From positions 1-64,000 of the IMG/VR virus record IMGVR_UViG_3300005289_000052: DNA of 64,000 nt. One strand, written 5' to 3'. Positions 27,169 through 43,386 of this stretch are shown here, in pieces. How positions within the stretch are numbered: position 1 is the stretch's first letter; each line of letters starts with the position of its first letter. The notes below the pieces were generated by a model. The model worked only from the letters and a program-made list of their open reading frames with translations, was not told the DNA's origin and searched no databases. The stretch comes from a virus. The translations under genes and the position numbers were made by a program.

Positions 27169-30141
27169 ATGGCTAACCTGTCGTTAAGCGTTGAACCGGG
27201 GTACTACCTCGAAGCGCAACATGCCAATTGGGTACTCAGCTCTGAAGTTGACTTCATCAGCTTTGCACTCAACGGTGCACAACCTGCCCTGTCGAAGTAC
27301 ATCGCTTACGACACCCTGAATCCTGCTAACCCATTTATCGCCGTTACGGAAGACGGCACTGGGCGAGTGGTGTACGACGGTGGGTTTCCTAAGTTCTACA
27401 ACACCTTCGCTCCTGCGGCTGGACTTGATCCATTGTTCAGCCTAGAGTTCCGAGGGACCACCGCTGGTAACACGTCGGGTACGAACTTTTTCTACTACGA
27501 CATGTTCTGTGATACCAAGGTGACCATCGCAGCCGGTGACAAGCTGGTATACGACATCTGGACTAACGATGCTAACGCTCGTGTCGGTCTGGATGGCGTT
27601 ACCGCCAATGACCCAGCGACATTCCGTTACGCTTTGCGTGACTGGATCGATCAGACCAACCGTATCAAGGATCAGAACGGTTTGGGTTGTCACCCCGCTA
27701 CGGACCTTTCGGCTTACGCGTTGAACAAGTGGTATCACCGCGAGTTTGACCTCACTCTGTGTGCCGGTTACCGCTTCGATAAGTGGTCATTGGCTTACGA
27801 GGGTGAGAAGGCCGGTACGTTCTACACCCGGTTCAAAGAGGTGTACATCCTGGACAAGAACGGGAAGGTGAAAGCCACCCTGTTCAAGGACAAGATCCTG
27901 ATCGCCAACTCTGCAAACATTGAGGGTGGTGCATCGGGGTATACGAACATCTCCAAGACTATCTACGATCCACGTTCTCACCTGAACGCTGCTTTCAAGT
28001 ATCTGTTCAACGCCATCCGTTGGGTGTCGAAGACTTCGATGTTGGAGGCAGGGGTCAAGAAGATCCTGATCTTGGGTGACTCCTCTGGTGCGTCGAACTA
28101 CAAGGTCAAAGGTACGGCTTCCACTGACTTCTTTACCAGTTTGACCAACCTCTGTACGGCGGTTGGTTTTACTCCCACGTTTAAAGACGTGACGGACTAC
28201 GCTGGTGGGTTGTTGAATGCTACCTTGGCTGAGATGAACCAGTACGACTGTGTGTTGCTGATGGGCTCACAGAGCGGTACAGGTGCACTGATCACCACGT
28301 CGATGATTCAGGACATCCAGACCTACCGGCAACAAGGCGGTGGGATTATCATGATCACTGACCATGGTAACGATGTTCCCAACATCGGTGCTGCTTACCC
28401 ACCAAGTACGAGTACTGCGTTCTTCCACATGGTGAACGCCGTAGCAGTCAACTTCGGTGCATGGTTCTCGGGTAACTTCGACCGAGTACCAGTGAACGTT
28501 GGGTTCCTTCGCACCAACTACGGGGATCACCCTCTGTACGATGGCATGGAGAATACCGAGTCTATTGCTGCGGGCGGTTCTGAATCCAAGGTGATCATCA
28601 CCAACCCTCCACAGTATCGAGATCCTGTTCCTCCCATCGACATCTCTAAGCAAGGGGTGAATACGGTCAAGGTCATGGCTTTGTTGAAAAACGGCACCAT
28701 GGAGGCTTACAGCTTTGTCTATGTGATTGCCACTGGACAGTTGCTCAAGTTCCTTGATCCTGATGGCGTAGAGATCAACGCCCTGCCTGCCTCGTTCTCC
28801 TCTAAGGTGGACTTCAACGTTGAGGTAGTGGGTGCTGGTCTGGGTACGATTCAAGGGGACATCCAGCTCAACGGTAAAACGGTGGGTAAGTTGGCCTACA
28901 GTGATTCTGAGGGGAGTTCGCAAGCGTGGATGGCAGGTGGTTCTAACCAACTGTTCGTTAACAAAGGCGACGTCTTTACCGCTCGGATTACCAGTCCGTT
29001 CCAGTTCACGCGTAACTTGCCTGTCAATCGGTATCAGCCTAACCTCACGGGTTTGGTCACGGTGCCTGCGGTGGTGAAAGCCATGCGTGCTGATGGGTTC
29101 GGAACCACTGAGCACAACAAAGTGGTGAACGCTGGCATTCGTCAGATGAACTTGGAGTACTCGCATCTTCAATACTTGCCTAAGGGTGACTACGCACGGG
29201 ACATCATCCAGTTGCGTTCATTCTTTGGTAGCCAGTTGGAGAAGCCAGGACAACAGGTTTACATCTACCAGACGTTGGCTCAAGCCCAAGAAGCAATGGG
29301 GCGGTTGACTCCTCCTTCGGCTCGGGACGTGTTCAATACCTGGGACCGCTTCACCAACAACGAGTACTTCGTTGGCGGTGTGGGGGCTACGGGCGATGCC
29401 GCTGCTTGGCAGTGGAACGATGCGTTAGGTGCTGCGGTGCAACCGTTGAACACGGCAACGTGGAACGGCTTCATCTCTCCTGACGTGGTGGACAACTACG
29501 AACTGGATGTGGTGATCAAGTCGGACAACGCGGACGATGACTCCAACGGTCTGGTGTTGGCGTTGAATCGCGATGGTGGAATCAACCACCGTTTGATCGT
29601 AGCGTTGAACCAAGGGGGTAACTCTCCTGCGGCTTCTCACTCGATCGGGATCTACAGTGGCGCAACTACCCAACACCTGGTCTTGAATGACTTCGCTGGA
29701 CGTAAGTCCAACGCAGCGTTCCCAACTGATGGTGGATGGCGTGGGAAGTTCAGCCGTGTGAAAGTTACGCGGTCAGGCAACTACTTCAAAGTGTTGGCCA
29801 GTCAGTGGAACTCGCTTATCTTGGACCCTGCGTCCTTGATGGAATTGACACTGAACGACACCGCACTGCAAGCACAGTTCAAAGGGGCTAAGCCCTGGGG
29901 TTTCATCAACCTCTCGCAAGCACAGTCCTACTTCACCCTGCGCGGCTATAAAGGCGGTCCTCTGAAGGACGTAGTGGTGGTTGGTGCGACTGGCGCTGTG
30001 TATTACTACACCAACGGGGGTTGGGCTTTGATTCCCGGTACGACTGCTAAGGATGTCTTCGGATACCCTCGCAAGCTTACGAACCCAGAAACTGGTGCGT
30101 CGTTCATGGTTAACGCGAACGGCACGATCACCGCACTTTGA
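27169..30141 (+). CDS. Large tail fibre or tailspike-like protein (fibre 2)
   Basis: 990 residues; nine bases after fibre 1. The first 290 residues are beta-rich. Residues about 294-420 form an alpha/beta segment (KKILILGDSSG, YDCVLLMGSQSG, GGGIIMITDHG). Its strand order resembles glutamine-amidotransferase/ThuA-like or flavodoxin-like folds, unusual in a fibre. Residues about 720-905 look like a LamG/concanavalin-like beta-sandwich (NYELDVVIKSDNADDD, GNYFKVLASQWNS). The C-terminus is a short beta tip. It may bind or process surface glycans; that is inference. Confidence 0.7.
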   Translation: MANLSLSVEPGYYLEAQHANWVLSSEVDFISFALNGAQPALSKYIAYDTLNPANPFIAVTEDGTGRVVYDGGFPKFYNTFAPAAGLDPLFSLEFRGTTAGNTSGTNFFYYDMFCDTKVTIAAGDKLVYDIWTNDANARVGLDGVTANDPATFRYALRDWIDQTNRIKDQNGLGCHPATDLSAYALNKWYHREFDLTLCAGYRFDKWSLAYEGEKAGTFYTRFKEVYILDKNGKVKATLFKDKILIANSANIEGGASGYTNISKTIYDPRSHLNAAFKYLFNAIRWVSKTSMLEAGVKKILILGDSSGASNYKVKGTASTDFFTSLTNLCTAVGFTPTFKDVTDYAGGLLNATLAEMNQYDCVLLMGSQSGTGALITTSMIQDIQTYRQQGGGIIMITDHGNDVPNIGAAYPPSTSTAFFHMVNAVAVNFGAWFSGNFDRVPVNVGFLRTNYGDHPLYDGMENTESIAAGGSESKVIITNPPQYRDPVPPIDISKQGVNTVKVMALLKNGTMEAYSFVYVIATGQLLKFLDPDGVEINALPASFSSKVDFNVEVVGAGLGTIQGDIQLNGKTVGKLAYSDSEGSSQAWMAGGSNQLFVNKGDVFTARITSPFQFTRNLPVNRYQPNLTGLVTVPAVVKAMRADGFGTTEHNKVVNAGIRQMNLEYSHLQYLPKGDYARDIIQLRSFFGSQLEKPGQQVYIYQTLAQAQEAMGRLTPPSARDVFNTWDRFTNNEYFVGGVGATGDAAAWQWNDALGAAVQPLNTATWNGFISPDVVDNYELDVVIKSDNADDDSNGLVLALNRDGGINHRLIVALNQGGNSPAASHSIGIYSGATTQHLVLNDFAGRKSNAAFPTDGGWRGKFSRVKVTRSGNYFKVLASQWNSLILDPASLMELTLNDTALQAQFKGAKPWGFINLSQAQSYFTLRGYKGGPLKDVVVVGATGAVYYYTNGGWALIPGTTAKDVFGYPRKLTNPETGASFMVNANGTITAL

Positions 30142-30156
30142 TAAACAGGAAAGGTT

Positions 30157-31785
30157 ATGGGCACTATCATTGTTAAGTACCCGGAAGACCCGACGGGGAT
30201 CAACCCCAACAACCTGGTCATCAACGAGCCTCACGATCTTGGAGCAGGGCGCAATCGCGCCTTTGTTCCTAACTACGGTTCCTACTACACGGAGTCGATG
30301 ATCGTTACTGAGCTTGCGACCGGGCGGGTCCTCAAGAAGGGCGAGCACTACATCGCTGCACAGTTGCAACAAGAAGCCACGCTGGCGATGGACAAAGAGA
30401 TTTGTGCCGTTGTTGTCATCACTGACCCAAGCGTGCAAAACCAACTGCTGTTCACTTACCAAGTTGTTGGTGGTGTGTTCAGTACGTCGGTCTCTGCGTT
30501 GCAGAAAATGATCGAAGACCTCGATCTGGACGAACGGGCTGTTGAGTGGGGCGCCATCATTGGTAAGCCTACCGCATTCCCACCTGCTCCTCACCTTCAC
30601 GATATCGGCGACCTGTACGGTTTCGAATACCTCGTGGAAGCGTTGGATGCTCTGCGTAATGCTATCCTGATCGGCGACGAAGCCGCGCACGATGAATTGC
30701 GTCAGTACATCCAGTACGAGGATGGTCTCCTGCGTGCGTCGATTGCTGAGCTGAAAGGCCAGTTCGATGCTCACGCGCAGGACAAGAACAACCCGCACGG
30801 TACAACCAAAGCTCAGGTCGGACTCGGTTCGGTCGAGAACTACGGTATTGCTACCACCGCCGAGGCTCAGGCAGGCACTTCCAACGCGAAGTACATGACT
30901 CCTCTGCGTACTGCCGAAGCGATTGCTCAGCAAGCGTTGATTCCTCTGAACGCACACATTGCTGACAAGAACAACCCTCACCAAACCACCAAAGCCCAAG
31001 TTGGCTTAGGTAGTGTGGAGAACTACGGGGTTGCGACTACAGCAGAAGCACAAGCGGGTGTGAGTGACGTCAAGTACATGACGCCTTTGAAAACCAAAGA
31101 CGCCATTGCCCAACAAGCGCTCATCCCACTCAACGCTCACATCAACGATAAGAATAACCCCCACCAGACTACCAAAGCTCAGGTAGGGTTAGGCTCCGTT
31201 GAGAACTTTGCGTTGGCGACCACTGCGGAAGCCCAGGCGGGGACTTCGAACCTTAAGTACATGACACCTTTGCTCACTGCTCAGGCGATTGCACAGCAGG
31301 CTCTGATTCCCCTCAACAACCACATCGCGGATAAAAGCAACCCACACCAAACCACGAAGGCACAGGTTGGGTTGAGCGATGTAGACAACTTCGCAACGGC
31401 AACTACCGCAGAAGCTCAGGCTGGCGTTCTGAACACCAAGTTCATGACTCCCCTGCGGACCAAAGAAGCCATCGCCTTCCAAGTGGGTAACGCGCTGACT
31501 GCTCACTTGAACGACATGAACAACCCTCACAACACGACTAAAGCGCAAGTCGGTCTGAGTCTGATTCCTAACTCGATCACTCGTAGTCGGGCAACCAACT
31601 CTGACGGTTCGTTGCTTACTGCCGGGGGTATGTACGACCACGTCAACTCAGCAGACCACGATGCACGCTATGCACCGAAGAACACTGCGGGTGTAGATTG
31701 CTCTGTTCACTGGAACGGTAGTGGTGTGTACGTTTGGGGTGGTGGTGCTTGGCGTCAGGTATGGCCTGCTCAGTGGGCTGCGTAA
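30157..31785 (+). CDS. Tail fibre protein with 61-residue repeats (fibre 3)
   Basis: 542 residues. The N-terminal 115 residues match fibre 1 in order (YPEDPTG, NEPHDLG, GEHYIAA), so both probably attach at the same type of site. Residues 205-470 hold five near-identical 61-residue repeats (NNPHxTTKAQVGLGSVEN ... AEAQAG ... KYMTPL). The last 70 residues (SADHDARYAPKNTAG, VHWNGSGVYVWGGGAWR) form a small tip typical of phage fibres. It directly precedes the modification operon. Confidence 0.85.
   Translation: MGTIIVKYPEDPTGINPNNLVINEPHDLGAGRNRAFVPNYGSYYTESMIVTELATGRVLKKGEHYIAAQLQQEATLAMDKEICAVVVITDPSVQNQLLFTYQVVGGVFSTSVSALQKMIEDLDLDERAVEWGAIIGKPTAFPPAPHLHDIGDLYGFEYLVEALDALRNAILIGDEAAHDELRQYIQYEDGLLRASIAELKGQFDAHAQDKNNPHGTTKAQVGLGSVENYGIATTAEAQAGTSNAKYMTPLRTAEAIAQQALIPLNAHIADKNNPHQTTKAQVGLGSVENYGVATTAEAQAGVSDVKYMTPLKTKDAIAQQALIPLNAHINDKNNPHQTTKAQVGLGSVENFALATTAEAQAGTSNLKYMTPLLTAQAIAQQALIPLNNHIADKSNPHQTTKAQVGLSDVDNFATATTAEAQAGVLNTKFMTPLRTKEAIAFQVGNALTAHLNDMNNPHNTTKAQVGLSLIPNSITRSRATNSDGSLLTAGGMYDHVNSADHDARYAPKNTAGVDCSVHWNGSGVYVWGGGAWRQVWPAQWAA
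30768..31570 (+). repeat. Tandem 183-bp coding repeats in fibre 3
   Basis: Core codons start at 30787, 30970, 31153, 31336 and 31519, an exact 183-base period. The period equals that of fibre 1. Confidence 0.9.
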
Positions 31786-31838: not shown

Positions 31839-32345
31839 ATGGGTAATGTGAGTGGCTCTTTATTTGGCTGTATCACAGAGTCTACCCTACAGGTAGACGA
31901 CATCCTTAGTAGTCCTTACCCCTATGAGCAACAGCTTGTAAAGATTCTCACAGGGGACATTGTCATTGACGCTATGAGTGTTTCAGATGTCTTGGAACAC
32001 TCAGACAAGGTCATCAAGATTGAAGGGATCGAGAAACTCAATCGATCCCTGTACCAAGCTTGCAAAGACCTAGCAGAGGTTATGGAACATGATGGGCCTA
32101 TTACTTGCCATCTGTTCCTGTCTCCTGCTGGGGGTAAGAGCTTTCCTTGGCACGATGATCCCGACGACGTGTACCTGTACATGGTCGAGGGTGCTAAAAC
32201 TATGGCTGTGGGCAACGAAGTCCATAAGCTGACCAAGTGGGACCATCTCTTCATTCCACGAGGCACGCAACATAGAGCTGTGAACTATCACGCCTCGAAG
32301 ATGCTAAGCTTTGGGTTGGAGCGATTCATTGCTGAGAAGCTCTGA
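31839..32345 (+). CDS. JmjC/cupin-like Fe(II)-dependent protein
   Basis: 168 residues. Residues 103-150 read PWHDDPDDVYLYMVEGAKTM ... LFIPRGTQHRAVNY. H105-x-D107 and H145 give the HxD...H metal triad of JmjC/cupin oxygenases, and the FIPRGTQH segment is typical of this fold. It is shorter than most JmjC hydroxylases, and the first 90 residues are helical and unrecognised. It is the first gene of the run that continues into six radical SAM genes; its stop overlaps the next start. A hydroxylase acting on a peptide or protein is the simplest reading. Confidence 0.65.
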   Translation: MGNVSGSLFGCITESTLQVDDILSSPYPYEQQLVKILTGDIVIDAMSVSDVLEHSDKVIKIEGIEKLNRSLYQACKDLAEVMEHDGPITCHLFLSPAGGKSFPWHDDPDDVYLYMVEGAKTMAVGNEVHKLTKWDHLFIPRGTQHRAVNYHASKMLSFGLERFIAEKL

Positions 32346-33379
32346 TGACCAAAACTATTTACGTCAAAACCACCGGTACCTGTAACCTTGCGTGCAAGCA
32401 TTGCTTCACCAACGGCAAGAACGGTGATCGTACCCAATTTGATCCAGTGCAGTTCGGTGACTGGATTGAAGAGTACATGTCCAAACACCCTAAAGGGACC
32501 GAGTACCACCTCGAGTTCCATGGTGGTGAACCCTTCCTTGTTCCACTCCCTAAGCTGATCCAGCTCGCGGATCGTTTTTATGACCGTGACGGGGTGTCGA
32601 TGTGCGCCAACAGCAACTTGACGTTTAAGTTGACTGAGGAACTCATCGCCTTTATTAAGCATTACTTCTACGGACACATTGGCACCAGTTGGGACCACTG
32701 GATTCGTTGGGGTAATCAAAAACAGTTTGACCTTTGGCGGTCGAACTTGAAAACCTTGCGTGAGCGTGATGTCTGCATCTATCTCAAGGTGTCGGTGAGT
32801 CGTGAGTTGATCAAGACCACACCGGACTGGTTCTTGGACCAGATCGAAAGCTTTGGGGTAACTGAGGTTTCGTTGGAGCGTCTAACGATGGACGGCAGTG
32901 CCAACGAGAACTTGGACATCTTCCCTAACAACGAGGAACAGGACAACTGGTACCTCGAGCTGTACAAGCGATACAAGCAACGCAAACTCAACTTCAAGAT
33001 CCGAACCCTCGACATCCTTGAGCAGAAGCTTAAGTACAACGTGGTGAAGGTGGACACCAACTGTCGCAACTGTGAACAGAATCTGGTGACCATCAACTCT
33101 AACGGGACTTTGGGTGGTTGTCCGAACGTGGCCTCTGCAAGACAGCATGCTCGTTTGGAAGAAGGGGCTGATGCGTTTCTCTCCTCGGATGCTCGGGTAG
33201 AAGAGATCGCTAAGGAATTGACTTGGGGTGATGGTTGCTTGAACTGTGACGTGTTCGACTTATGCGGTGGGGATTGCCATCGCTTGCCTTGGCAGAAGGG
33301 TCGCTGTGGTGGCCTTAAGAACACGCTGAGGTATTTGTCGGGCCGTTCCACACAATCCAATTTGATCCTGAAGGTGTGA
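32345..33379 (+). CDS. Radical SAM enzyme with SPASM-like C-terminus (rSAM 1)
   Basis: 344 residues. The CxxxCxxC cluster site is C13, C17, C20 (TCNLACKHC), followed by GGEP near residue 62. The C-terminus has a Cys-rich region (CRNCEQ ... GGCPN ... CLNCDVFDLCGGDC) like SPASM auxiliary-cluster domains, which bind extra 4Fe-4S clusters in peptide-modifying enzymes. The gene starts in an overlap with the JmjC-like gene and ends two bases before the Cys/His-tailed protein, which is therefore its most likely substrate. The exact reaction cannot be told from sequence. Confidence 0.8.
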   Translation: MTKTIYVKTTGTCNLACKHCFTNGKNGDRTQFDPVQFGDWIEEYMSKHPKGTEYHLEFHGGEPFLVPLPKLIQLADRFYDRDGVSMCANSNLTFKLTEELIAFIKHYFYGHIGTSWDHWIRWGNQKQFDLWRSNLKTLRERDVCIYLKVSVSRELIKTTPDWFLDQIESFGVTEVSLERLTMDGSANENLDIFPNNEEQDNWYLELYKRYKQRKLNFKIRTLDILEQKLKYNVVKVDTNCRNCEQNLVTINSNGTLGGCPNVASARQHARLEEGADAFLSSDARVEEIAKELTWGDGCLNCDVFDLCGGDCHRLPWQKGRCGGLKNTLRYLSGRSTQSNLILKV

Positions 33380-33380
33380 A

Positions 33381-33935
33381 ATGACGGACATTACAAGACA
33401 GATGGTCGCTGACCAAGCGAACGCTGTGATTCGAGGGAACGCCAACGCCGGTATCTCGTGGGGGACGAACAGCTTCCCTGCTGGTGCCCTGGCTGGTTGG
33501 TTTGGTGGGTCGACTGCGGGTAACCCCGTAGCCCTCAGTGCTGGTAGCATTGCTGCTGGCAACCTTTCGGCATCGAACGTGTCAGCGGTACTGCGTAACT
33601 TCACCAACCAGTTTGCTGCGATTCGTCGTACGCGGATTGTGGTTTATTACGCTAAGAACTGGGGTGAGGATTACATCTACTCCGGTGTTGATGTGCGCGT
33701 GGACTCTACGGCTATTGCCTATACGGCGTATCCTGCTGGCAGTCCCGGTAACAACGCAGCACTCCCTGGCTTGGCGGCAGGGGCCACTGCCTCGTGGGGT
33801 AATATGGCGGCGTGTATCAACAACCTGTGGGCACAGTACAACGAGATGTGTCGTAACACCACGTTGACACTGACCAACACCATCTGTCACTCGAGCTGCC
33901 ACGACAACTGTCACTGCAACCGTGGGCGTCGTTAA
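33381..33935 (+). CDS. Gly/Ala-rich protein with CHxxCHxxCHC tail, candidate modified precursor
   Basis: 184 residues. Residues 1-80 are Gly/Ala/Asn-rich. Residues 85-120 are beta-like (RIVVYYAKNWGEDYIYSGVDV). The last 16 residues contain C169, C173, C177 and C179, each of the first three followed by His (CHSSCHDNCHC), then NRGRR. Four-residue Cys spacing recalls CXXX-repeat peptides linked to radical SAM maturases. It starts two bases after rSAM 1. It may be a ribosomally made, post-translationally modified peptide precursor, a modified fibre tip, or a metal-binding protein. No homolog recognised. Confidence 0.6.
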   Translation: MTDITRQMVADQANAVIRGNANAGISWGTNSFPAGALAGWFGGSTAGNPVALSAGSIAAGNLSASNVSAVLRNFTNQFAAIRRTRIVVYYAKNWGEDYIYSGVDVRVDSTAIAYTAYPAGSPGNNAALPGLAAGATASWGNMAACINNLWAQYNEMCRNTTLTLTNTICHSSCHDNCHCNRGRR

Positions 33936-33945
33936 GGAGTCCTCA

Positions 33946-34692
33946 ATGTCTGAAGAAAAACCTCTGGTCCAAGTTGAGGTCACTGCTCCGATTCCTCTGG
34001 ACGTGCTCAAGCGCAAGTTCAAAGAGAACATCGAGTTCGTTATCGACTACGATGCGAGCAAGCTTAAGGGTAAGGTGTTGATCACCTACCTGAGCAACCT
34101 CAAGATCAAGTGTCGCCTGAAACTGACTGACCAGTCTGTTGCACTGGCGTTGGTGGAAGAGTACCTGAACATTCCGGTACTGGTCGATATGTCAGACCTT
34201 GAAGACTTGGCGATGGACATTCTGTTGGCCTACACAGGCAAGCCGAACCGCATCGCTGTGGACCTGTCTGACTTCTTCGTTCGTAACAAGGAAGCACTGG
34301 ACCGTTGGGTACGTCGTCTGTACTCCATTCCTCTGTACGCTTTGTGGTCGATGGAGCAGTACAAGTCCGAGGTAGAGAAATTCCCAGTGGACGAGGAAGA
34401 TACCATTGCTGGTGTCAACTTCGTGATGCTGATCGCTCACCCTGACTTTGCCGTCTTCATGGAAAACGTTCAAGAGGACCAATACACTTGGTGCCCAACG
34501 TTCTTCAAGGAGTACGTGTTCCAGGGTAGCAACCTCTTCAACTTCTTTGCTGACGAGCGCAACCCGTTCTTCGTGGGACTTCTGGCCATCCAGAGTCCTG
34601 AAATGTTTAACGAGATCGCACCGAAAGTCCAAAAGGCTTACGACGATTCCGTGGCCCTCATGAAAGGTATCGAGCATGTACCATCTCTTTAA
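33946..34692 (+). CDS. Uncharacterised protein of the modification operon
   Basis: 248 residues from the ATG at 33946 with AAGGAG upstream. Acidic, mixed alpha/beta, aromatic-rich (WCPTFFKEYVF). No cofactor or catalytic motif. It overlaps the next gene by 17 bases and lies between the candidate substrate and the second radical SAM gene. Possible roles are substrate delivery or chaperone; nothing in the sequence proves one. Confidence 0.65.
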   Translation: MSEEKPLVQVEVTAPIPLDVLKRKFKENIEFVIDYDASKLKGKVLITYLSNLKIKCRLKLTDQSVALALVEEYLNIPVLVDMSDLEDLAMDILLAYTGKPNRIAVDLSDFFVRNKEALDRWVRRLYSIPLYALWSMEQYKSEVEKFPVDEEDTIAGVNFVMLIAHPDFAVFMENVQEDQYTWCPTFFKEYVFQGSNLFNFFADERNPFFVGLLAIQSPEMFNEIAPKVQKAYDDSVALMKGIEHVPSL

Positions 34693-35731
34693 CTCGGTGT
34701 ATGTAGACCTCGAGCGCCGCATCAACCGCACGGTCGACAACATCACCATCTCGCCGTACATTGGTCTGGAGTATTTCCCAGGCCAGAACGAAACTGCTGG
34801 TCGTCAGATCGGTTACGCCAAGACCATGGAATCGGTTGAACCCGAAGTCCTGATCGGCTGGTTCAAAGAAGCCATGCTGTCCAAAGAGAAGACCTTCATC
34901 TTCTGCGACGGCACCACCTACATGCGGTTGTACTCCATGTTGGTGAAAGCGGTACTGCCCAAGGTGGACCTCGAAACCTTCAAGTGGATCTGGCTCTGCA
35001 AGAAGGCAACCTTCAACACTTCGTTGACCAACTGGAAACAGCCTGGCAACAACGTGCTGGATGGTTTGGAGATCACCACCGAAACCGTCGAGATGATGTT
35101 CAACCTCGACGACCCTCATCAAGAGGCCTTCACTGCACTGCTCGCCGGTAACGACGATGTAGTCTCACTGGAGTGGCATATCCTGCGTCTGGCGGCTATC
35201 GGTTACGTGGGCATCGTTCCTAAGCGTCTGAAACACATCCTGCGTCGTATCGCTCTGGCGAACACTCATGATGCACTCGATGTTTGGGGTCGTGTGATCA
35301 CTGATCCTGAACACTGGGAATACGCTGGCGCTGACCGTGACACCCTGCTCGATGCTCCTAGTGTGTTCCAAGGTGCACTGAACCTTCACTTTACCAACAA
35401 CCCGATCTTCTTGAAGCCTGGGCTGTTCGTGAAGCATCCTCAAGATGCGTGGCTCTGCAACCTGCTGGAAGAACTGCACCCGTTGCTCGAGCGTGTAGGT
35501 GAGGGTCCAACTGCCAAGCGTACGTTGAAGATCCTGAGCTTCCTGCGAGACCTCAACCCGCTGTCCGATCCAGGTAAGTGTCTGGAACGCTGCCGTGACT
35601 TCTTTGTTGGTATTGATCGGCTGGCCATGCCAAACCGTGACTCCAGCAAGTACGACGAAAACCTGATCCGTTATATCCTCAGTCGTGACCAGGCAGATCT
35701 GGCACGCATGTTTGAAGGGGCAACTTGGTGA
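34676..35731 (+). CDS. Uncharacterised protein of the modification operon
   Basis: 351 residues, mostly helical, rich in Leu, Asp, Glu and Trp. No CxxxCxxC or metal triad. It shares a 17-base overlap with the gene before it and a GTGA overlap with the following radical SAM gene, so the three are translated together. Function unknown. Confidence 0.65.
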   Translation: MYHLFNSVYVDLERRINRTVDNITISPYIGLEYFPGQNETAGRQIGYAKTMESVEPEVLIGWFKEAMLSKEKTFIFCDGTTYMRLYSMLVKAVLPKVDLETFKWIWLCKKATFNTSLTNWKQPGNNVLDGLEITTETVEMMFNLDDPHQEAFTALLAGNDDVVSLEWHILRLAAIGYVGIVPKRLKHILRRIALANTHDALDVWGRVITDPEHWEYAGADRDTLLDAPSVFQGALNLHFTNNPIFLKPGLFVKHPQDAWLCNLLEELHPLLERVGEGPTAKRTLKILSFLRDLNPLSDPGKCLERCRDFFVGIDRLAMPNRDSSKYDENLIRYILSRDQADLARMFEGATW

Positions 35732-36735
35732 ATTTAATCCCGGTGGTAGACGTACTAGCGGACAAGAAAGGCGCAACGAAAGAAGCACACCTGATCTTGT
35801 TCGAGAAGTGTAACCTGCGTTGTTCGTTCTGCCACCAGGACCACGATTCAACCGTAGGTTTGGATGCGGATGAGATCATGCGTAAAGGGATCAGGCTCGT
35901 TGAGTCCTCAGACCTTGAAGCACCGATCGTTATCAACATCACTGGCGGCGAGTTGTTTACCGACGACATCGAAGACTGGATGTTTGGGTACTACCTGTCC
36001 TTGGGTGAGTACCTGCTGCAAAACTTCAAACGCGCTAAGATTGTCTACGGGACGAACTTGGTGTACGAGAAGGTATGGCGTGTCGAGCGACTGATGACCA
36101 TGTTGAGCGCTCATAGCTCTCCTAGTCAAGGGGTTAGCTTGTCGACGTCATACGACCCCGCAGGCCGGTTCAATCCAGCACAGCGGGAATTGTTCTTCAA
36201 GAACTTGGAACGGGTTGGCCTTTGGGTTGACACGGTAAACGTGGTAATCACTAAACAGAACATCGACGTCTTCCTGAACGACCGTGAGGGCGTTGAGGTG
36301 AAAGATCTGGCGTACGACTACGATCTGTATTTTGATCATTACATACCAAGCGAAAGATATGAAGAGCACCAACCTACTGAGTCACAGATCCGTCAACTCT
36401 ATTTGAAGCTGGCGAAGAAGTATCCTCTCTCGTATCCCATTGCCTCCTGGAAAAACCAGCAGTTCAATGAGACGACTTGTCGTTCCACCAAGATCATCAA
36501 CAAAGATGGTGTGGTGACTACGTGCTGGTCGGAAGCGGGGAAGGATGCGATCCTTGACGAAGGTGAAGGGTTGGTTGCTAAACAATCGGCGGAAGAACGG
36601 TTTATCGAACATTACGGGTGTTTGTCGTGTGAGTATTACCAACGCTGCGGTTTGCGTTGTTTCCTCCACCACAGCTTTATCGAAGGCTCTTCCACAGAGT
36701 GTGAGATCAAGCTCCTGTTCGACGAAATCTTGTAG
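35728..36735 (+). CDS. Radical SAM enzyme (rSAM 2)
   Basis: 335 residues with a GTG start (AAGGGG upstream; an adjacent TTG is less likely). C28, C32, C35 form the CxxxCxxC motif (CNLRCSFC), with TGGEL around residue 72. The C-terminal Cys pattern (CLSCEYYQRCGLRC) resembles SPASM/twitch domains. It is followed by a hairpin inside the operon and then another radical SAM gene. The likely role is radical chemistry on a peptide or protein substrate. Confidence 0.8.
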   Translation: MNLIPVVDVLADKKGATKEAHLILFEKCNLRCSFCHQDHDSTVGLDADEIMRKGIRLVESSDLEAPIVINITGGELFTDDIEDWMFGYYLSLGEYLLQNFKRAKIVYGTNLVYEKVWRVERLMTMLSAHSSPSQGVSLSTSYDPAGRFNPAQRELFFKNLERVGLWVDTVNVVITKQNIDVFLNDREGVEVKDLAYDYDLYFDHYIPSERYEEHQPTESQIRQLYLKLAKKYPLSYPIASWKNQQFNETTCRSTKIINKDGVVTTCWSEAGKDAILDEGEGLVAKQSAEERFIEHYGCLSCEYYQRCGLRCFLHHSFIEGSSTECEIKLLFDEIL

Positions 36736-36741
36736 CCCAGG

Positions 36742-36767
36742 GCCGGTGGATAAAACCACCGGCTTTG
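36742..36767 (+). terminator. Intra-operon hairpin, possible attenuator
   Basis: GCCGGTGG, loop ATAAAA, CCACCGGC followed by TTTGTGCCGTC, which matches the terminator-tail consensus (TTATGCCGTC) with a G for A. It lies between rSAM 2 and rSAM 3, so it may reduce downstream expression or mark a processing site. Confidence 0.55.
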
Positions 36768-36788
36768 TGCCGTCACTAAGGGGTTAGT

Positions 36789-37877
36789 ATGGATCTCATT
36801 ATAAAGCCAACCGTGAAATGTAACTTCAAGTGCACGTTCTGTTCGAGCACGCACTTGTCAGAAGAACCGAAAGACATTGTCGAGTTGGCTGATATCGAAG
36901 CCTTCTTGAAGCGTTACCCCGACACCCGGACCATCATCGTTAACGGTGGTGATCCATTGATGATGCCACCCAAGTACTACTGGGACATGATCGAGATCCT
37001 AGACCGTTTGGACATGGACACTGTCATCTCCTTTACCACGAACCTGTGGGCGTTCTACAAGAAACCTGAACTGTGGGCTCCGTTGTTTAAGCTGGATCGG
37101 ATTGGTGTCAACACCTCGTTCCAGTACGGCGACAAACGTCTCAAGGGAGACGGTACTCCTCTGACTGAGGATGAGTTCATTGCGATCTCTGATCTGTTCT
37201 TGGAGAAGGTTGGGTATCGTCCAGACTTCATTGCGGTGATTGACCAAGACAACGTTGACACGGTCATCCCGACGGTAGAGTTGGCTAAGCGCCTAGGTCT
37301 GGAGGCGAAGATCAACTACGTCTCTGCATCTGGTCCTGAGGTTGTGAATCGCGGTGTGGTAATGGGGAGCATCAACAACTTCTACACTCAAGCTGACATG
37401 TACGAACAATACATCAAGATCTACGACGCAGGTCTGATGGAGTGGGAGTACAACACCAAGCAGATGTCTCGTCGCTTGAAGTTTGGTAACACGACTTGTC
37501 CTTTGGCCCGGTCCTGCGATGAAGGCATCCGTGCGTTACAACCTGGGCAGACGTACTTCTCTTGTGGTAGTTTCGGGGATGATGGCGAATACCCGATTGA
37601 CTTCCAGAAAGAGATGGCGGGTGAGTTCTTCACGCCTTTGCAAGTCGTTCCTGAATTGGATTCGATGAAAGATGCGTGCTACACCTGCCCGATGTTCAGC
37701 ATCTGTAATGGATGTCGTAAGACTGTGGCTGACACTAAACGCTTTGGACTCACGGAGTACCACTGCAAGAAGATGAAGTCACTTGCTCCACGCATCATCG
37801 AGATCAACGGCATGACGGGGTTGTTGGAACCCACCCCTTACGTTGATGAATCCGTCCAGATCATTGCAAGGGGCTAA
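36789..37877 (+). CDS. Radical SAM enzyme with SPASM-like domain (rSAM 3)
   Basis: 362 residues. C11, C15, C18 form CNFKCTFC near the N-terminus, and NGGDP follows. The C-terminal half has many Cys (CPLARSC, YFSCGSFG, CYTCPMFSICNGC), as in SPASM domains with two auxiliary clusters. AAGGGG lies before the ATG. Typical length for peptide-modifying radical SAM/SPASM enzymes (350-450 residues). Substrate unknown. Confidence 0.8.
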   Translation: MDLIIKPTVKCNFKCTFCSSTHLSEEPKDIVELADIEAFLKRYPDTRTIIVNGGDPLMMPPKYYWDMIEILDRLDMDTVISFTTNLWAFYKKPELWAPLFKLDRIGVNTSFQYGDKRLKGDGTPLTEDEFIAISDLFLEKVGYRPDFIAVIDQDNVDTVIPTVELAKRLGLEAKINYVSASGPEVVNRGVVMGSINNFYTQADMYEQYIKIYDAGLMEWEYNTKQMSRRLKFGNTTCPLARSCDEGIRALQPGQTYFSCGSFGDDGEYPIDFQKEMAGEFFTPLQVVPELDSMKDACYTCPMFSICNGCRKTVADTKRFGLTEYHCKKMKSLAPRIIEINGMTGLLEPTPYVDESVQIIARG

Positions 37878-37878
37878 C

Positions 37879-38070
37879 ATGGCCGCACTCACCGAAGAGC
37901 AGGCGTTCCTCCATATCCAGACCATCCTGCGTGACGAGATCGGTTACCTTCAACGTCAATATGCGCAACGTGGTCTTCAATACAACCCAATCGACATGGC
38001 CGAGTTCGAGAAACAGGTTCGTGAAAAGTTGGTTGATATCTTACTTGAATGTGGCGGGGTAGCTGTATGA
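37879..38070 (+). CDS. Small uncharacterised protein of the modification operon
   Basis: 63 residues from the ATG at 37879 (AAGGGG). Helical and charged; no Cys-rich core except one near the end (LECGGVAV). Its stop overlaps the next start (ATGA). Too short to assign; it could be a small carrier or chaperone, or a peptide substrate, but has no leader-core split that I can see. Confidence 0.6.
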   Translation: MAALTEEQAFLHIQTILRDEIGYLQRQYAQRGLQYNPIDMAEFEKQVREKLVDILLECGGVAV

Positions 38071-38447
38071 CTCACGAAGTAAAAGACAATGTTCACCTGA
38101 TCCATGGATTGATTGACACTCAGACCGGTGCCGACCCAATCTGCGTCTACATCGACAAGGAAAGCTTGGTCGACATGTTGGAGGACATCGTTCACAACGT
38201 GGTGACAGTGCGTTACTGGATCAGCAGTAATCCGCTGAAGACTGTGGAGGAAGCAGACATGCAAACCCTCGAACAGGTCAACGGTTATCTGGATGCTGAG
38301 ATCCAACATCGTTACTCAGACATCACCGGTTACTTGTGGACCGATGAACACTTCAAGGTGGGTGGTCATGACCTGATCCCAATCTTTGAAGAGGCCGAAG
38401 AGAAGTACCTCCTACTGGAAATCACGGTCCATGAAAAGTCCGATTAA
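38067..38447 (+). CDS. Uncharacterised protein of the modification operon
   Basis: 126 residues, acidic and helical (EEADMQTLEQVNGYLDAEI). No motif. Its 3' end overlaps rSAM 4 by 17 bases. Its partnership with the preceding 63-residue protein is suggested by coupling only. Confidence 0.6.
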   Translation: MTHEVKDNVHLIHGLIDTQTGADPICVYIDKESLVDMLEDIVHNVVTVRYWISSNPLKTVEEADMQTLEQVNGYLDAEIQHRYSDITGYLWTDEHFKVGGHDLIPIFEEAEEKYLLLEITVHEKSD

Positions 38448-39366
38448 CCTCAGTCTCAACCTGACCTACTACTGTAACTTCAAGTGTGAGTTCTGTTACC
38501 TCACGCCTGAACAGTTGCGAGATCGTCAACGTCTGCCTCTGGACATTCTGGAGCAGCAGCTAGACAAGGTCCTGGAGCAATACGACGTACATCACGTAGA
38601 CATCTACGGTGGTGAGGTCATGGTGTTGCCGAAGGACTATCTGTTCCAAGTGCGTGACATCCTTCATGCTCGAGGCATCGACGACCTGGTGTTGATCACT
38701 AACGGGTCTGTCCTCAACGAAGTAACCTCGTGTATGGACTTCGACCTGAGCATCTCCTACGACCTCACAGCGCGTGAGAGAAGCGATTGGGTACTGGGCA
38801 ACATCTTTATGCTCGATCGTCCCTTCTCGATGCTTACGCTGGCTTCTAGGAAGTTCCTGGACACGGTTACGCCTGACGACTACGTTCAAGAGCTGAACAT
38901 GCTCAATGGGATGAAGTGTGCAGAGATCAAACCGTACTCTTCAAACCAAGCCAACCAACAAAGCGTGAGTTACAAAGAGTTCGAGGACTTCGTTTGGGCT
39001 GTGATCAATCACCCTGATCGACAGTTCTACTTCGAGAACCGCACGCAAGTCAAAGAGGCGGCAGAAGGTAAGCGTAACGCTTATAGTGACGATCACCTGT
39101 ACATCACACCGAAGGGTGAGTTTGCAGTGCTCGAGTTCGATCACAACGACCATGAGTTCTTCTTAAGGATGGACTCCCTCCATGACTACCGTAACTGGTG
39201 TCAGGTCGAACGATTCCGTGTGGAGGGCAACCTGTTCTGCGGTGCGTGCCCTTACAAAGGAGGCTGCCTGTCGGAACACTTACGCGACGTGAAGTCCTTG
39301 GACAACTCCTGTAATGGATTCCGAGGACTCCTAGACAGGTGGGTAGAACATGCAGGTTCAACATAG
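38431..39366 (+). CDS. Radical SAM enzyme (rSAM 4)
   Basis: 311 residues from the ATG at 38431; an upstream in-frame ATG lies deep inside the previous gene. C15, C19, C22 form CNFKCEFC; YGGEV follows near residue 55. The C-terminus has FCGACPYKGGC, a short SPASM-like or twitch pattern. It overlaps the next gene by 17 bases. Assigned to the radical SAM family by motif; substrate unknown. Confidence 0.8.
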   Translation: MKSPINLSLNLTYYCNFKCEFCYLTPEQLRDRQRLPLDILEQQLDKVLEQYDVHHVDIYGGEVMVLPKDYLFQVRDILHARGIDDLVLITNGSVLNEVTSCMDFDLSISYDLTARERSDWVLGNIFMLDRPFSMLTLASRKFLDTVTPDDYVQELNMLNGMKCAEIKPYSSNQANQQSVSYKEFEDFVWAVINHPDRQFYFENRTQVKEAAEGKRNAYSDDHLYITPKGEFAVLEFDHNDHEFFLRMDSLHDYRNWCQVERFRVEGNLFCGACPYKGGCLSEHLRDVKSLDNSCNGFRGLLDRWVEHAGST

Positions 39367-40354
39367 GCAGCGTTTGGAAATCACCCTCGATATCTTTCGG
39401 GGGTGTGGTCATCACTGTGTCGGGTGTATGATCGACAAACAGTTGGGTGGTGAGGTCAGCGACATTCCTGAACTACTCCAACTGATTGAGGAAATGACAG
39501 CCGTGGGTTACGTCGCCTTTGACTTAGGTGTCGGACCTACTGACTACATGTCCTCTGACAACGTTCAAGACGTGATGGGCAATGAGACCTTCCAAGCGAT
39601 GGCTCAACTGTTCCATCAGGTTACGTTCAACGCAGCGTTCTTGGAAAAGGATCTGGAGAAGTACGAAGCGATGTGCCAAGACATTGATCTGGCGTGTCCT
39701 GGTAAACCGATCCGCTTCCTGATCCCTGCTGCACCGACCTTCTTTAAGAACGAGAAGTTCGGCAACATGATCGTGCAGAAGCTCGAACACATCAAGGCCA
39801 CGTTCCAATCAGCGTTCCTCAATGAGGCAGGCTTTGTGGTGACGTGTAACCATGAAACGATGGACGAGAACTTTGACGCTAACATGCGCAATGGATTTGA
39901 TGTTGAGTTCCCTGTGGACAAAGACGACATCTTAAACATTCCGTATGGTCGTACCAAGAACCTTGACCTGATGGTGGGTCAACGGGTCAAGCGGGTCTCG
40001 CACCAGATCAGTGAGTTCTATGCAGGACTGGAAGGGGAAGACGAGCGTCGCAAGAACCCAGATTTGCACTACGACACAGGCACGATGGTTAACCTGTTGT
40101 ACACTGGTGGAAAGCTGTACTGGGTTCCCTTCCTTAAAGACGACTGTCCGTTCATACACGACGAGTTTGTCGTTCCGAGGCCCTGGACTATGGATAACCT
40201 TCTGCGCGTGCGTAACAGCGCTATGGAGCGTTCTGTGGAGTATCTCCAAGGCACCGAGTGTCTGAACTGTGTGCACTTCGCCAGTTGCATGGAGAAAGGC
40301 ATCAGTACCATCATGCAGAAGCTTTCGATTCGCGATTGCCTAGTGGGGTTGTGA
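39350..40354 (+). CDS. Divergent radical SAM enzyme (rSAM 5)
   Basis: 334 residues. C19, C23, C26 form CGHHCVGC. The usual GGE motif is replaced by GVGPTDYMSSDN, which is shared with rSAM 6. The C-terminus has CLNCVHFASC, a reduced SPASM-like pattern. The stop overlaps the rSAM 6 start (TGATG). The pair forms a subfamily distinct from rSAM 1-4. Confidence 0.75.
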   Translation: MQVQHRQRLEITLDIFRGCGHHCVGCMIDKQLGGEVSDIPELLQLIEEMTAVGYVAFDLGVGPTDYMSSDNVQDVMGNETFQAMAQLFHQVTFNAAFLEKDLEKYEAMCQDIDLACPGKPIRFLIPAAPTFFKNEKFGNMIVQKLEHIKATFQSAFLNEAGFVVTCNHETMDENFDANMRNGFDVEFPVDKDDILNIPYGRTKNLDLMVGQRVKRVSHQISEFYAGLEGEDERRKNPDLHYDTGTMVNLLYTGGKLYWVPFLKDDCPFIHDEFVVPRPWTMDNLLRVRNSAMERSVEYLQGTECLNCVHFASCMEKGISTIMQKLSIRDCLVGL

Positions 40355-41406
40355 TGTTTGCGCTCAGGATTTCCAAATCGTTTAACCTCTCCTTAGAAAT
40401 CCTTAAGGGGTGCGGGTTCAGTTGCCCTGGGTGTACAGTTGAGAAGAACTTTGCTCCCATGGAAATCCCAGAAGCAGACGCTCAGGCTCTGTTGGCTCTC
40501 GTGGATGAATTGAAAGCTGATGACTTCCGACTGTTGGAATTGAAGTTAGGTCCCACTGACATCACCAGCTCTGACAACGGCTTTGCAGCAATGCAACACC
40601 CGTTCGTTAAAGAGATGGCGTTACGGTACAAAGCTTTGAACATCAGCCACCCCATGCTTCATGATCGTGGGTTTGTGGAACTGGCTCAGTTGATTGATGA
40701 ACTGATCCCAGGTAAAAAGCTCAGCGTCGGTGTTCCAATGACGTTGAAGAATATACAGAACCCGAAATATATGGCGCTGGTTAAACAGCACATCGCGTTG
40801 TTCAAAAGTCTGCTTAAGAAAGTCGACTTCAACCGTGTGTATGCAACCTTCAACGTGATCGAAGACAACTTGGAGAACCTGTCCGTAGAGAGTTACGAGC
40901 AGGCACACCAGATGGATTTAGGTGACGTTGGGATTGTGGTGGAGTTTCCTTTCGCCCACTCTCGCCAAGGGATGGATAACTTGCTGGTGTTGGACAGATT
41001 CCGTCGGGACCTGTACCACTTCACCGAGTTCATTAAAGAACGGGCTAACACTAAAAGCTTTCGACCACTGCAACCTGCTGTGTTGAGCGGGATTGAGTTC
41101 ACGTACCGGGCTGGGTCTTTGTACTCTACTCCGGTGCTGGTTGAGAACTTGCCGATCTTCCATCCTGATTTCGAGTTACCCAAACCTTGGAGCGCATCTG
41201 AACTGATGTCGTTCTTGGAGAATCGTTACTACGATAACCTCATCGAGTTTGCAGACCACCCTGAGTGTGGGAACTGCTGCTTCCTCGACAACTGTGCTCG
41301 TGGTGATGTTCACCGCATCATGAAGCTGGTAGGACGTGACACCTGTCTGACTGGCACTAAGAACCGCTGGGACTTGATCCTAGTAGAGGATGGCCTGAAT
41401 GATTAA
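40354..41406 (+). CDS. Divergent radical SAM enzyme, paralogue of rSAM 5 (rSAM 6)
   Basis: 350 residues from the ATG at 40354. C20, C24, C27 form CGFSCPGC, followed by KLGPTDITSSDN in place of GGE. The C-terminus has CGNCCFLDNC. Similarity to rSAM 5 across the length suggests tandem duplication. Overlaps the next gene by eight bases. Confidence 0.75.
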   Translation: MFALRISKSFNLSLEILKGCGFSCPGCTVEKNFAPMEIPEADAQALLALVDELKADDFRLLELKLGPTDITSSDNGFAAMQHPFVKEMALRYKALNISHPMLHDRGFVELAQLIDELIPGKKLSVGVPMTLKNIQNPKYMALVKQHIALFKSLLKKVDFNRVYATFNVIEDNLENLSVESYEQAHQMDLGDVGIVVEFPFAHSRQGMDNLLVLDRFRRDLYHFTEFIKERANTKSFRPLQPAVLSGIEFTYRAGSLYSTPVLVENLPIFHPDFELPKPWSASELMSFLENRYYDNLIEFADHPECGNCCFLDNCARGDVHRIMKLVGRDTCLTGTKNRWDLILVEDGLND

Positions 41407-41854
41407 CCCAAACGATTGCTTTGCGATCATGGATCACATACCGGTTCCAGAAGAAATGGAACTGTGGTGCATGTGTCAACCTGACAAAACCACTGTGGAC
41501 GATGATCGCATTGTCGATTACGTTTGGGACGTTCTGCTCCCCGCTCTGCGTAGCCTGCCAAACCATCCGATGGACTTGGCTAACATCCGACCGTGTGCTT
41601 ACCACGTCAATCTGTCCACCAACGGAGTAACGCCCCACAATCACTTACCGCACGCTTTAACGACGGTGCTGTACGTGACAGACGCTGATGGCGCTCTCGT
41701 CGTAGAACCGTGTTCTGAGAAGCCTCACAAGGTGTATCCGCGCCGTGGTCGCATGGTAGTGATGCACGGTTCAACTATGCATGGTGTTGAGCCTTCCTTC
41801 GACGAACAATTCCGCATCTCACTGGTCGTTAGCTATGAATTCCCAACCACATAA
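41399..41854 (+). CDS. 2-oxoglutarate/Fe(II) oxygenase-like protein
   Basis: 151 residues. The order YHVNLSTNGVTPHNHLPH, a strand-rich middle, then MHGSTMHGVEPSFDEQFRISL fits the double-stranded beta-helix fold with His ligands, a distal His, and an Arg that would bind 2-oxoglutarate. Short for the family. The first of three oxygenase-like genes at the end of the operon. Likely hydroxylates a peptide or protein; inferred from context. Confidence 0.6.
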   Translation: MINPNDCFAIMDHIPVPEEMELWCMCQPDKTTVDDDRIVDYVWDVLLPALRSLPNHPMDLANIRPCAYHVNLSTNGVTPHNHLPHALTTVLYVTDADGALVVEPCSEKPHKVYPRRGRMVVMHGSTMHGVEPSFDEQFRISLVVSYEFPTT

Positions 41855-42272
41855 GCAGTACCAAGAGCTGTACCAGATGGTGGTCACCGACCACACCGAT
41901 GACTTCTCTCTGATGGAGTTCGTTGAAGACGACGAACTGTTGGAGAATGCCAAGAACTACTTCCGTAAGGCTGAGTTCCCTCTGGTGTATCCGGCGAAGT
42001 CGATGGCCGTGGCTGTGATCTACGCCTTGCTGCTTGAAGAAACCTACGCCATCAATCCGTTTGACTCGTTGCGAGACTTGGATCTGTTCTTAGGACAGGA
42101 CCAATACTTCCACGTTTATGACGAACATCCAGAAGAGTACGATGCCTTGCTCGAATGGGTACTCAGTCACGAGAACTGGAAGGAGATGGGTTGGGCTCCG
42201 AAGACTGTGGAATACTTCCGACTGGAGTGTACCGCAGAAGGCATTCAGGAAGTCATGGAGAAACTTGGATGA
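41835..42272 (+). CDS. Uncharacterised acidic protein of the modification operon
   Basis: 145 residues from the ATG at 41835, overlapping the previous gene by 20 bases and the next by an ATGA. Acidic and helical, Tyr/Glu-rich. No motif. Lies between two oxygenase-like genes. Confidence 0.6.
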   Translation: MNSQPHKQYQELYQMVVTDHTDDFSLMEFVEDDELLENAKNYFRKAEFPLVYPAKSMAVAVIYALLLEETYAINPFDSLRDLDLFLGQDQYFHVYDEHPEEYDALLEWVLSHENWKEMGWAPKTVEYFRLECTAEGIQEVMEKLG

Positions 42273-42829
42273 ACATCATTCAACCGTGGGAAACACCAAT
42301 CGGTCACTCGAACTTTGGTCAGTGTCTGGACCTCACTGCTTTGAAAGACGAGATCGGTGCACTGGCGTTGATGTCTGATCAAGAGGACGGTGGACAGCGT
42401 TACGTCAACGACTACGACACCTTCCCCAACATCGTACACCTGTTGCGTGACATCATCGACCACGAAGTCAAAGACTACATCAAGAAGATGTGGGACTACG
42501 GGTTGGGTGAGTTCCGCCGTGAGACCAATGCGAAGTGGATTCCACCGGGAGAGGGCTTGTACCCGCACTACCATCCTGGCTCCCAAGTGTCGGCGATCTT
42601 CTACCCTGAGGACTCTCCTTCTGGCTTGGCGATGTTTGACCCTCGTGGTAATGCGTGTCGTGGCTATCCCAAACAGATCCGTAACCGTTACATGGCTCCG
42701 CACCTGATCTCTCCGGCAGCAGGTGATCTGTGGATCTTCCCTTCGTTCGTACAACACAGCGTCTCCTACGTGAAAGAGGATACGCGGCTTTCTATGTTGT
42801 GTGAATACTACTTCTCTGACGAGCGCTAA
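42269..42829 (+). CDS. 2OG-Fe(II) oxygenase-like protein (paralogue A)
   Basis: 186 residues. Starts NIIQPWETPI. HYHPGSQVSAIFYP is followed by a DPRG segment, then AAGDLWIFPSFVQHSV and an RLSM segment. This resembles the 2OG-FeII_Oxy_5 type (H.H ... FP..H ... R). The family hydroxylates or oxidises small molecules or proteins. The next gene is its paralogue. Confidence 0.7.
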   Translation: MNIIQPWETPIGHSNFGQCLDLTALKDEIGALALMSDQEDGGQRYVNDYDTFPNIVHLLRDIIDHEVKDYIKKMWDYGLGEFRRETNAKWIPPGEGLYPHYHPGSQVSAIFYPEDSPSGLAMFDPRGNACRGYPKQIRNRYMAPHLISPAAGDLWIFPSFVQHSVSYVKEDTRLSMLCEYYFSDER

Positions 42830-42831
42830 CC

Positions 42832-43386
42832 ATGCAACTTATCCAACCGTGGAACACGTCGATCCTCAAGGTCAACTTGGCCGACATCGTAAACCTCGAG
42901 GAGATCTCTCAAGAAATCCTCAACCTGCACTGCATCGCTCCGCAGGAATCGAAGACTGCGTACAAGGTGACTCCAGAAGAGTTCCCTGCTCTGTGCGACT
43001 TCCGTGATCGGGTTGTTACGAACCTGGTGAAGGAATACCTCAAGAAGACCATGGACTACGACTTGACCGACTTCACTGTCGACACGTTCGGTAAGTGGTT
43101 TGAAGCAGGTACTGATCTGGGTGCTCACGTTCATGGTAGTACCGGAGTCACTTCCGTGTTCTATCCTGCCGACTACGAGTCGGGTATGACCATCTACGAT
43201 CCACGTGGTAACGCTTCTCGTGGCTACCCGCGTGAGATTCGTGACTCGTATTTCTCGCCGTACTACCACGCTCCAAAAGCCGGTGATCTGCTGATCTTCC
43301 CTGGCTACTTGCAGCACTACGTTCCGACTGTAAAGGACGCACTGCGTCTGTCGTTGATCAACGACTACATGTTCAAGAGCGTCTAA
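42832..43386 (+). CDS. 2OG-Fe(II) oxygenase-like protein (paralogue B)
   Basis: 184 residues, starting QLIQPWNTSI like paralogue A, with HVHGSTGVTSVFYP, DPRGNASRGYP, AGDLLIFPGYLQHYV and RLSL. Three bases after paralogue A. The pair shares the order and spacing of its ligand residues. This is the last gene of the operon, followed by a terminator. Confidence 0.7.
   Translation: MQLIQPWNTSILKVNLADIVNLEEISQEILNLHCIAPQESKTAYKVTPEEFPALCDFRDRVVTNLVKEYLKKTMDYDLTDFTVDTFGKWFEAGTDLGAHVHGSTGVTSVFYPADYESGMTIYDPRGNASRGYPREIRDSYFSPYYHAPKAGDLLIFPGYLQHYVPTVKDALRLSLINDYMFKSV

Follow-up and report, generated by a model that had tools for sequence, protein, structure and literature searches.

The DNA analysed here (the window) is the first 64 kb of the 243,669-base virus record IMGVR_UViG_3300005289_000052 in IMG/VR. 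Positions 31839-43386 hold sixteen tightly spaced open reading frames (ORFs), all on the plus strand, in which genes for six radical S-adenosylmethionine (SAM) enzymes (rSAM1 to rSAM6, in order of position) and for oxygenase-like proteins accompany a gene for a small protein with a Cys/His-repeat tag at its C-terminus. The close packing and shared strand had been recognised in the initial annotation, which counted fifteen genes; the number is sixteen, a 75-amino-acid (aa) ORF at 37843 being easily overlooked. Also unnoticed at that stage was the likely substrate within the operon, the product of gene 3 (33381..33935, plus strand, 184 aa), hereafter the tag protein. Its tag, CHSSCHDNCHCNRGRR, occupies residues 169-184 (window 33885-33932) behind a domain of about residues 1-168, and the end of the protein reads ...TNTICHSSCHDNCHCNRGRR. 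Pfam and NCBIfam gave no match for the tag protein, and PHROG only a weak one, to an unnamed family. As the same cassette recurs across many other phages, the operon is not a chance arrangement. Promoter and terminator scans gave signals at or below shuffled expectation.

IMG/VR viral contigs were searched with a degenerate DNA pattern for CHxxCHxxCHxxRxRR, a stop codon not being required, and the pattern was found in at least 119 stretches. Among the matches listed, to which the counts in this and the next two sentences apply, the tag stood exactly at the protein C-terminus in 141 of 143 translated matches. The Cys, His and Arg positions were fixed by the pattern and the others were free; the second residue after His was Ser or Asn in 133, 135 and 128 of 139 distinct proteins (repeats 1-3, respectively), and Gly preceded the final RR in 127 of the 139. 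No Cys occurred outside the tag in 99 of 141 tag proteins. The resulting consensus is (C-H-x-S/N)x3-R-G-R-R-stop, on carriers that otherwise diverge: across 50 aligned members, identity to the window protein was about 21-56%, with the C, H and R columns of the tag, as set by the pattern, invariant and S172 nearly so. BLAST clustering of the proteins without their tags gave one large cluster holding the window protein, a second one of short tag proteins, whose genes often form tandem pairs, and several outliers. These outliers may be remote homologues, since Foldseek pairs the model of the window protein with that of the Agrobacterium phage Atu_ph07 at 13% identity. One locus (L040:8108-8878, minus strand) encodes a tag with four C-H repeats (CHSNCHSNCHSNCHTNRSRR), downstream of which lie about seven CxxxCxxC-type ORFs.

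In the AlphaFold model of the window protein, most of the domain has a predicted local distance difference test score (pLDDT) above 90, against about 55 in the tag, which on this prediction is a flexible end protruding from a confidently folded domain. Among viral models, Foldseek matched this one to the tag protein of Atu_ph07, to a protein of an uncultured phage and to a few more; three proteins of 504-660 aa from Myoviridae sp. ctijX18 (BFVD A0A8S5USJ8, A0A8S5USJ7 and A0A8S5USV2) also match the predicted fold of the tag domain. Isolated phages carry the tag as well. The gene at the same cassette position ends in CHTSCHTSCHSARGRR in Pseudomonas phage DT01, in CHSSCHTSCHGSRGRR in both Burkholderia phages SURPRISE13 and FLC6, in CHSSCHASCHNSRSRR in Atu_ph07 and in CHTSCHASCHSSRSRR in Sinorhizobium phage Phosso, and the tag DNA is present in FLC8. 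Phages CP220 and Eowyn were checked and lack it. A tblastn search of named phages with a 28-aa tag peptide returned no matches, although these isolates do carry the tag.

The tag is closely linked to the enzymes. A radical SAM match was found on all 50 tag contigs tested, 45 of them above the cut-off. Of 24 control contigs of at least 25 kb, drawn by arbitrary 15- and 16-mers, four had a radical SAM match, and three of those four carried the tag too. In 77 of 130 loci a radical SAM-type ORF lay on the same strand within 100 bases of the tag gene, mostly directly upstream and bearing KTTxTCNLxCxHCFTxG, the hallmark of rSAM1, which in 65 of 99 loci lay closest to the tag among the assigned genes on its upstream side. 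A coverage-filtered family search found three to six radical SAM ORFs in each of the 25 loci with sufficient flank, and a recurrent order of cupin, rSAM1, tag, TAPI, (HLF), rSAM2, rSAM3 and rSAM4 with oxygenases interspersed, TAPI and HLF being conserved cassette proteins without assigned function. In many phages the tag protein, an encoded candidate precursor with a core, lies beside rSAM1 and the other enzymes, as is expected of a ribosomally synthesised and post-translationally modified peptide (RiPP). At tandem-tag loci (L009, L033, L041, L052, L076, L078 and others), which encode two short tag proteins of about 125-140 aa, enzymes of the rSAM5/6 type are present and rSAM1 usually does not adjoin.

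The assignment of six radical SAM proteins, already made in the initial annotation, is backed by the CxxxCxxC motif in all six together with Pfam Radical_SAM and family alignment. The motif falls at the residues first given in rSAM1 (32345..33379, directly upstream of the tag gene; 13/17/20), rSAM3 (36789..37877; 11/15/18), rSAM4 (38431..39366; 15/19/22), rSAM5 (39350..40354, GCGHHCVGC; 19/23/26) and rSAM6 (40348..41406, GCGFSCPGC; 20/24/27); in rSAM2 (35725..36735; phrog_1802, 8.5e-33) it is at 29/33/36 from the TTG start, not at 28/32/35. All are on the plus strand. PF04055 scores exceed the cut-off for rSAM3 (44.2 bits) and rSAM4 (35.4 bits, with family alignment in addition), are at the cut-off for rSAM1 (28.3-29.6 bits) and are sub-threshold for rSAM2 and rSAM5; rSAM6 has no Pfam Radical_SAM match of its own. 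The last two, divergent members were placed by an alignment with 19 relatives (21 sequences), in which C22, C26, G28 and C29 are invariant, a C-terminal CxxC-C-C set is at least 90% conserved and 8 of the 21 sequences individually match PF04055; as a profile against PDB sequences, this alignment gave nothing useful. The SPASM-like C-terminal Cys clusters seen at the outset correspond to a CxxC...C...C set that is invariant among relatives of rSAM1-4, but against TIGR04085 (SPASM) rSAM1, here termed SPASM-type, scores 26.1 bits, just under the cut-off of 27, and rSAM2 weakly. Identity of rSAM3 to its relatives in FLC6, FLC8, SURPRISE13, Atu_ph07 and Phosso is 53-60%, and 71% in DT01.

The NCBIfam models nearest to rSAM1 are mostly peptide or protein maturases (among them anSME, PapB, YhhB and DarE), all far below cut-off. 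No named radical SAM RiPP class in NCBIfam (PapB, YhhB, HxsB/C, DarE and others) was reached, the best score being 47 bits against full-enzyme cut-offs of at least 180. A DNA-modification or QueE-like role was rejected, the matches being weak and confined to the common radical SAM core, as was antiviral viperin, to which similarity is far below cut-off. Some relatives have radical SAM-type genes for proteins of about 600 aa (L053:6037-7812, minus strand; L103:5328-7160, plus strand). At least one such protein, that of L053, matches a B12-binding domain, which suggests extra chemistry, for example methylation, in some cassettes.

Four other products have oxygenase folds, as had been proposed. 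The JmjC_2/cupin-type oxygenase-like protein (31839..32345, plus strand, 168 aa) exceeds the Cupin_2 (32.4 bits) and JmjC_2 (29.1 bits) cut-offs and contains a readable HxD...H; 66 of the 133 tag loci have its orthologue, as the first gene of the cassette. The three 2-oxoglutarate (2OG)-Fe(II) oxygenases, also on the plus strand, exceed the cut-off of 27 for PF13640 (41399..41854, 27.3 bits) or PF13759 (42269..42829, 40.7 bits; 42832..43386, of the same Pfam family, 35.5 bits). Iron-ligand patterns of the form HxD...H or HxH...H are readable in the oxygenase and JmjC_2 sequences. TAPI (33946..34692, plus strand; phrog_20767) is encoded in 88 of 133 tag loci, usually by the next gene 3' of the tag, and its invariant residues in alignment include P15, S38, Y48, N51, S127, G156 and N158. 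Its fold is confidently predicted (pLDDT 92) and has no significant PDB match in Foldseek; a relation to RsbS was rejected, the PDB match being weak and unconvincing. HLF (34676..35731, plus strand) begins M-x-HLF. The remaining plus-strand ORFs encode 75 aa (37843..38070, without a Pfam match), 132 aa (38049..38447, without a reliable Pfam match) and 147 aa (41829..42272, with homologues within some other cassettes).

Upstream of the cassette (27169..31785, plus strand) lie virion and tail-fibre-like genes, in agreement with its earlier placement after tail-fibre genes: their PHROG matches are to virion structural, tail fibre and tail proteins (phrog_11065, phrog_33406, phrog_2163 and phrog_13857), and virion structural, tail-fibre and baseplate families stand upstream both in the window and in distant relatives. 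The available text of the Atu_ph07 virion mass spectrometry study delimits a cluster of virion proteins at coding sequences (CDS) 170-215 (PMC6102473), and RefSeq gp170 of this phage is the tag protein, at the boundary of that cluster. The numbering of the study and that of RefSeq agree, each having the major head protein as gp215. Presence of the tag protein in the virion is thus moderately supported. Immediately 3' of the cassette, the window encodes a protein with a peptidoglycan-binding domain (43460-44137), in the place of which phage DT01 has a putative transglycosylase. In another locus (L044:4086-11047), the cassette is closely preceded by a run of seven ORFs; six of these begin MKII[EK]S, and the first has a Pfam match to pantoate-beta-alanine ligase.

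We consider it probable that the operon is a RiPP-like maturation cassette acting on the tag at the C-terminus of a tail or host-contact protein. The gene 3 protein would be a folded domain, probably a tail or fibre component, with a flexible (C-H-x-S/N)x3-R-G-R-R tag. rSAM1 and the other SPASM-type enzymes would modify the C-H-x-S/N units, through cross-links or another radical-based change to the side chains of Cys, His or Ser/Asn; the JmjC and 2OG-Fe(II) oxygenases would hydroxylate, and TAPI and HLF are possible carriers or adaptors. The mature tag would be shown on the particle and serve at host contact. The nearest characterised models include makers of thioethers, cyclophanes and formylglycine, and all score far below cut-off. 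H-x-S/N has the same spacing as the aromatic three-residue cyclophane unit; a His cyclophane of three residues would fit it, and the tag Cys could form thioethers or bind metal. By association, the case for the tag as substrate of the enzymes is strong; that for chemistry on the tag and for a host-contact function is weak. The post-translational modification of a phage protein first suggested is accordingly well supported by association, with the tag protein as candidate substrate.

Several points weigh against this maturation. The place of gp170 in the Atu_ph07 particle is deduced from the boundaries of the mass spectrometry cluster. The fold of the tag protein, for which Foldseek finds no PDB match, gives no functional hint. 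Ordinary RiPP precursors, with a short leader recognised by a RiPP recognition element (RRE), cleavage and export, are unlike the candidate here, a folded protein of about 116-364 aa, and no RRE, protease or transporter was recognised among the cassette genes in Pfam and NCBIfam searches. The radical SAM enzymes may also have further substrates.

Radical SAM/SPASM RiPP systems (sactipeptides, ranthipeptides/PapB, cyclophane makers such as YhhB and FxsB, and DarE/DynA) likewise set a SPASM-type enzyme beside a small Cys/His repeat, and several are among the NCBIfam models nearest rSAM1, at scores far below cut-offs. They differ in that several different radical SAM enzymes and oxygenases are together here, that a folded protein carries the candidate core, at its extreme C-terminus, and that no leader/RRE, transporter or protease was found in the cassette. 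The HxsA-D system of Haft and Basu, in the available portion of the source, has His-Xaa-Ser units with the radical SAM enzymes HxsB and HxsC (PMC9062424); here, however, the HxsB/HxsC models score no higher than about 25 bits (cut-offs 268-370), NCBIfam gives no match for the tag protein, and a Cys before every His is invariant. JmjC/cupin and TIGR02466/2OG-FeII_Oxy_5 oxygenases supply the fold families of the four operon enzymes, the genes here being inside a tag cassette.

A different explanation takes the tag mainly as a site of metal or heme type with which a tail component is tipped, by analogy with phage spike tips, where HxH sites bind Fe; the enzymes would assemble or tune the metal centre instead of making a RiPP-like cross-linked peptide. 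The Cys-His dyads do recur, invariant, every four residues, and overlapping CxxCH triplets can be read directly in the tag (CHxxCH contains CxxCH). A bare metal site would not, however, require three to six radical SAM enzymes and several oxygenases, S/N at the second position after His is almost as conserved as the supposed ligands, and no heme lyase or metallochaperone was seen; this explanation is therefore unlikely. Still less probable is cleavage of the C-terminal peptide to free a RiPP-type toxin or signal directed at the host or at competitors. The pairing of radical SAM/SPASM enzymes with a short, repeated Cys motif recalls RiPP clusters, and the arginine-rich end of the tag could be a protease site, but in the conserved cassette no gene for a protease, a transporter or immunity was recognised, the tag is always attached to a larger domain, and cleavage at RGRR, being at the very terminus, would free nothing useful. 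A third alternative, hardly credible, gives the enzymes an auxiliary metabolic or host-takeover role unrelated to the tag, in anaerobic metabolism, in making nucleotide analogues or in a viperin-like activity. Such a role was proposed for Campylobacter phage radical SAM genes (PMC2853527), and rSAM4 and rSAM1 have a weak viperin similarity; but tag and radical SAM genes co-occur in both directions in a fixed gene order, and the viperin similarity is confined to the common radical SAM core and far below the cut-off (47 against 180 bits).

The initial view that no phage system of this form had been described holds, within the literature searched, for the tag and the cassette, and not for the component genes, which were annotated earlier. 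Radical SAM, cupin and 2OG genes are annotated at this position in FLC6 (PMC8066314) and SURPRISE13 (PMC11898562). The available passages on phage 332-Vera call its many radical SAM genes within the structural cluster highly unusual (PMC12390700), and those on CP220, with eleven radical SAM genes, call a multi-gene cluster of this kind unusual (PMC2853527). The likeness of CP220/CPt10 and 332-Vera to the present cassette is, on these passages, their many radical SAM genes, those of 332-Vera being inside the structural cluster; the passages propose no substrate, and CP220 differs in having no CH tag. For the tag, its linkage to the enzymes and its Bdellovibrionota counterparts, no report was found in the searchable literature, outside which lie most subscription journals and all preprints.

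The last of these came from a scan of genomes outside viral contigs, with the tag plus a stop codon as the pattern, which gave 19 stretches, mostly from metagenome-assembled genomes (MAGs). Most have the tag at a protein C-terminus with radical SAM-like genes nearby; a few, without such a protein, look like chance matches. Many of the 19 are labelled Bdellovibrionota, relatives of predatory bacteria; others may come from contigs of phages, the Rhodobacteraceae bin being an example. For three loci with long flanks a chromosomal location is probable, since genes resembling housekeeping genes by eye surround them (for example thiolase, acyl-CoA dehydrogenase, cytochrome oxidase and methionyl-tRNA synthetase); one aminoacyl-tRNA synthetase among them was confirmed by profile. 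In an unrooted rSAM1 tree, five of six bacterial rows nest among phage rows, with support of 100/99 for grouping with two phages and 96/97 for a group including Atu_ph07, a placement that would fit transfer from phages to bacteria. The system is confined neither to jumbo phages nor to phages.

Peptidase_S74 is a phage-fibre chaperone domain. Six of eight Bdellovibrionota genomes have a Peptidase_S74 gene at a distance of 2.8-14 kb from that of the tag protein, with only one to four such matches per genome across the eight; in the other two the tag is on a contig of less than 12 kb. In two of these neighbours (L228 and L230) a prepilin N_methyl start (Pfam) is fused to S74, and a third is similar by eye. 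The Bdellovibrionota-type MAG contigs L226-L230, with apparently chromosomal tag cassettes near a prepilin-like/Peptidase_S74 gene, also have a small signal-like ORF (100-132 aa) and one of about 200 aa with GRHWVKVK or a similar sequence at its end; this set is possibly a predator surface appendage. In the available text of a Bdellovibrio study, MAT fibres (S74 and non-S74) are phage-tail-fibre-like prey-recognition proteins, and S74 fibres are among the proteins for prey recognition (PMC10769870). The Bdellovibrionota tag cassettes resemble that setting, so far as this text describes it, in lying near S74 genes and differ in the prepilin start of L228 and L230; for the MAT fibres, the same text reports no radical SAM maturation (PMC10769870).

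These observations suggest a cassette that remodels the tip of a protein touching or entering another bacterium, in many unrelated phages and in some predatory bacteria. Tentatively, the two may share, by horizontal exchange, a C-terminal CH-repeat tag on a fibre- or tail-associated protein, which several radical SAM enzymes and oxygenases would turn into a non-natural, RiPP-like contact tip binding or breaching the target envelope. RiPP-style radical chemistry is familiar from small secreted peptides and from a small number of cellular proteins; in the present case enzymes of that class occur in the neighbourhood of phage structural genes, together with a tag under such constraint that it is kept while identity between its carriers falls to about 20-30%. 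Maturation of the tag would explain the puzzling banks of radical SAM enzymes and oxygenases in several jumbo and marine phages, and the question is open to standard virion proteomics on the isolates DT01, FLC6, FLC8, SURPRISE13, Atu_ph07 and Phosso. It would also link phage tails with prey contact by predatory bacteria.

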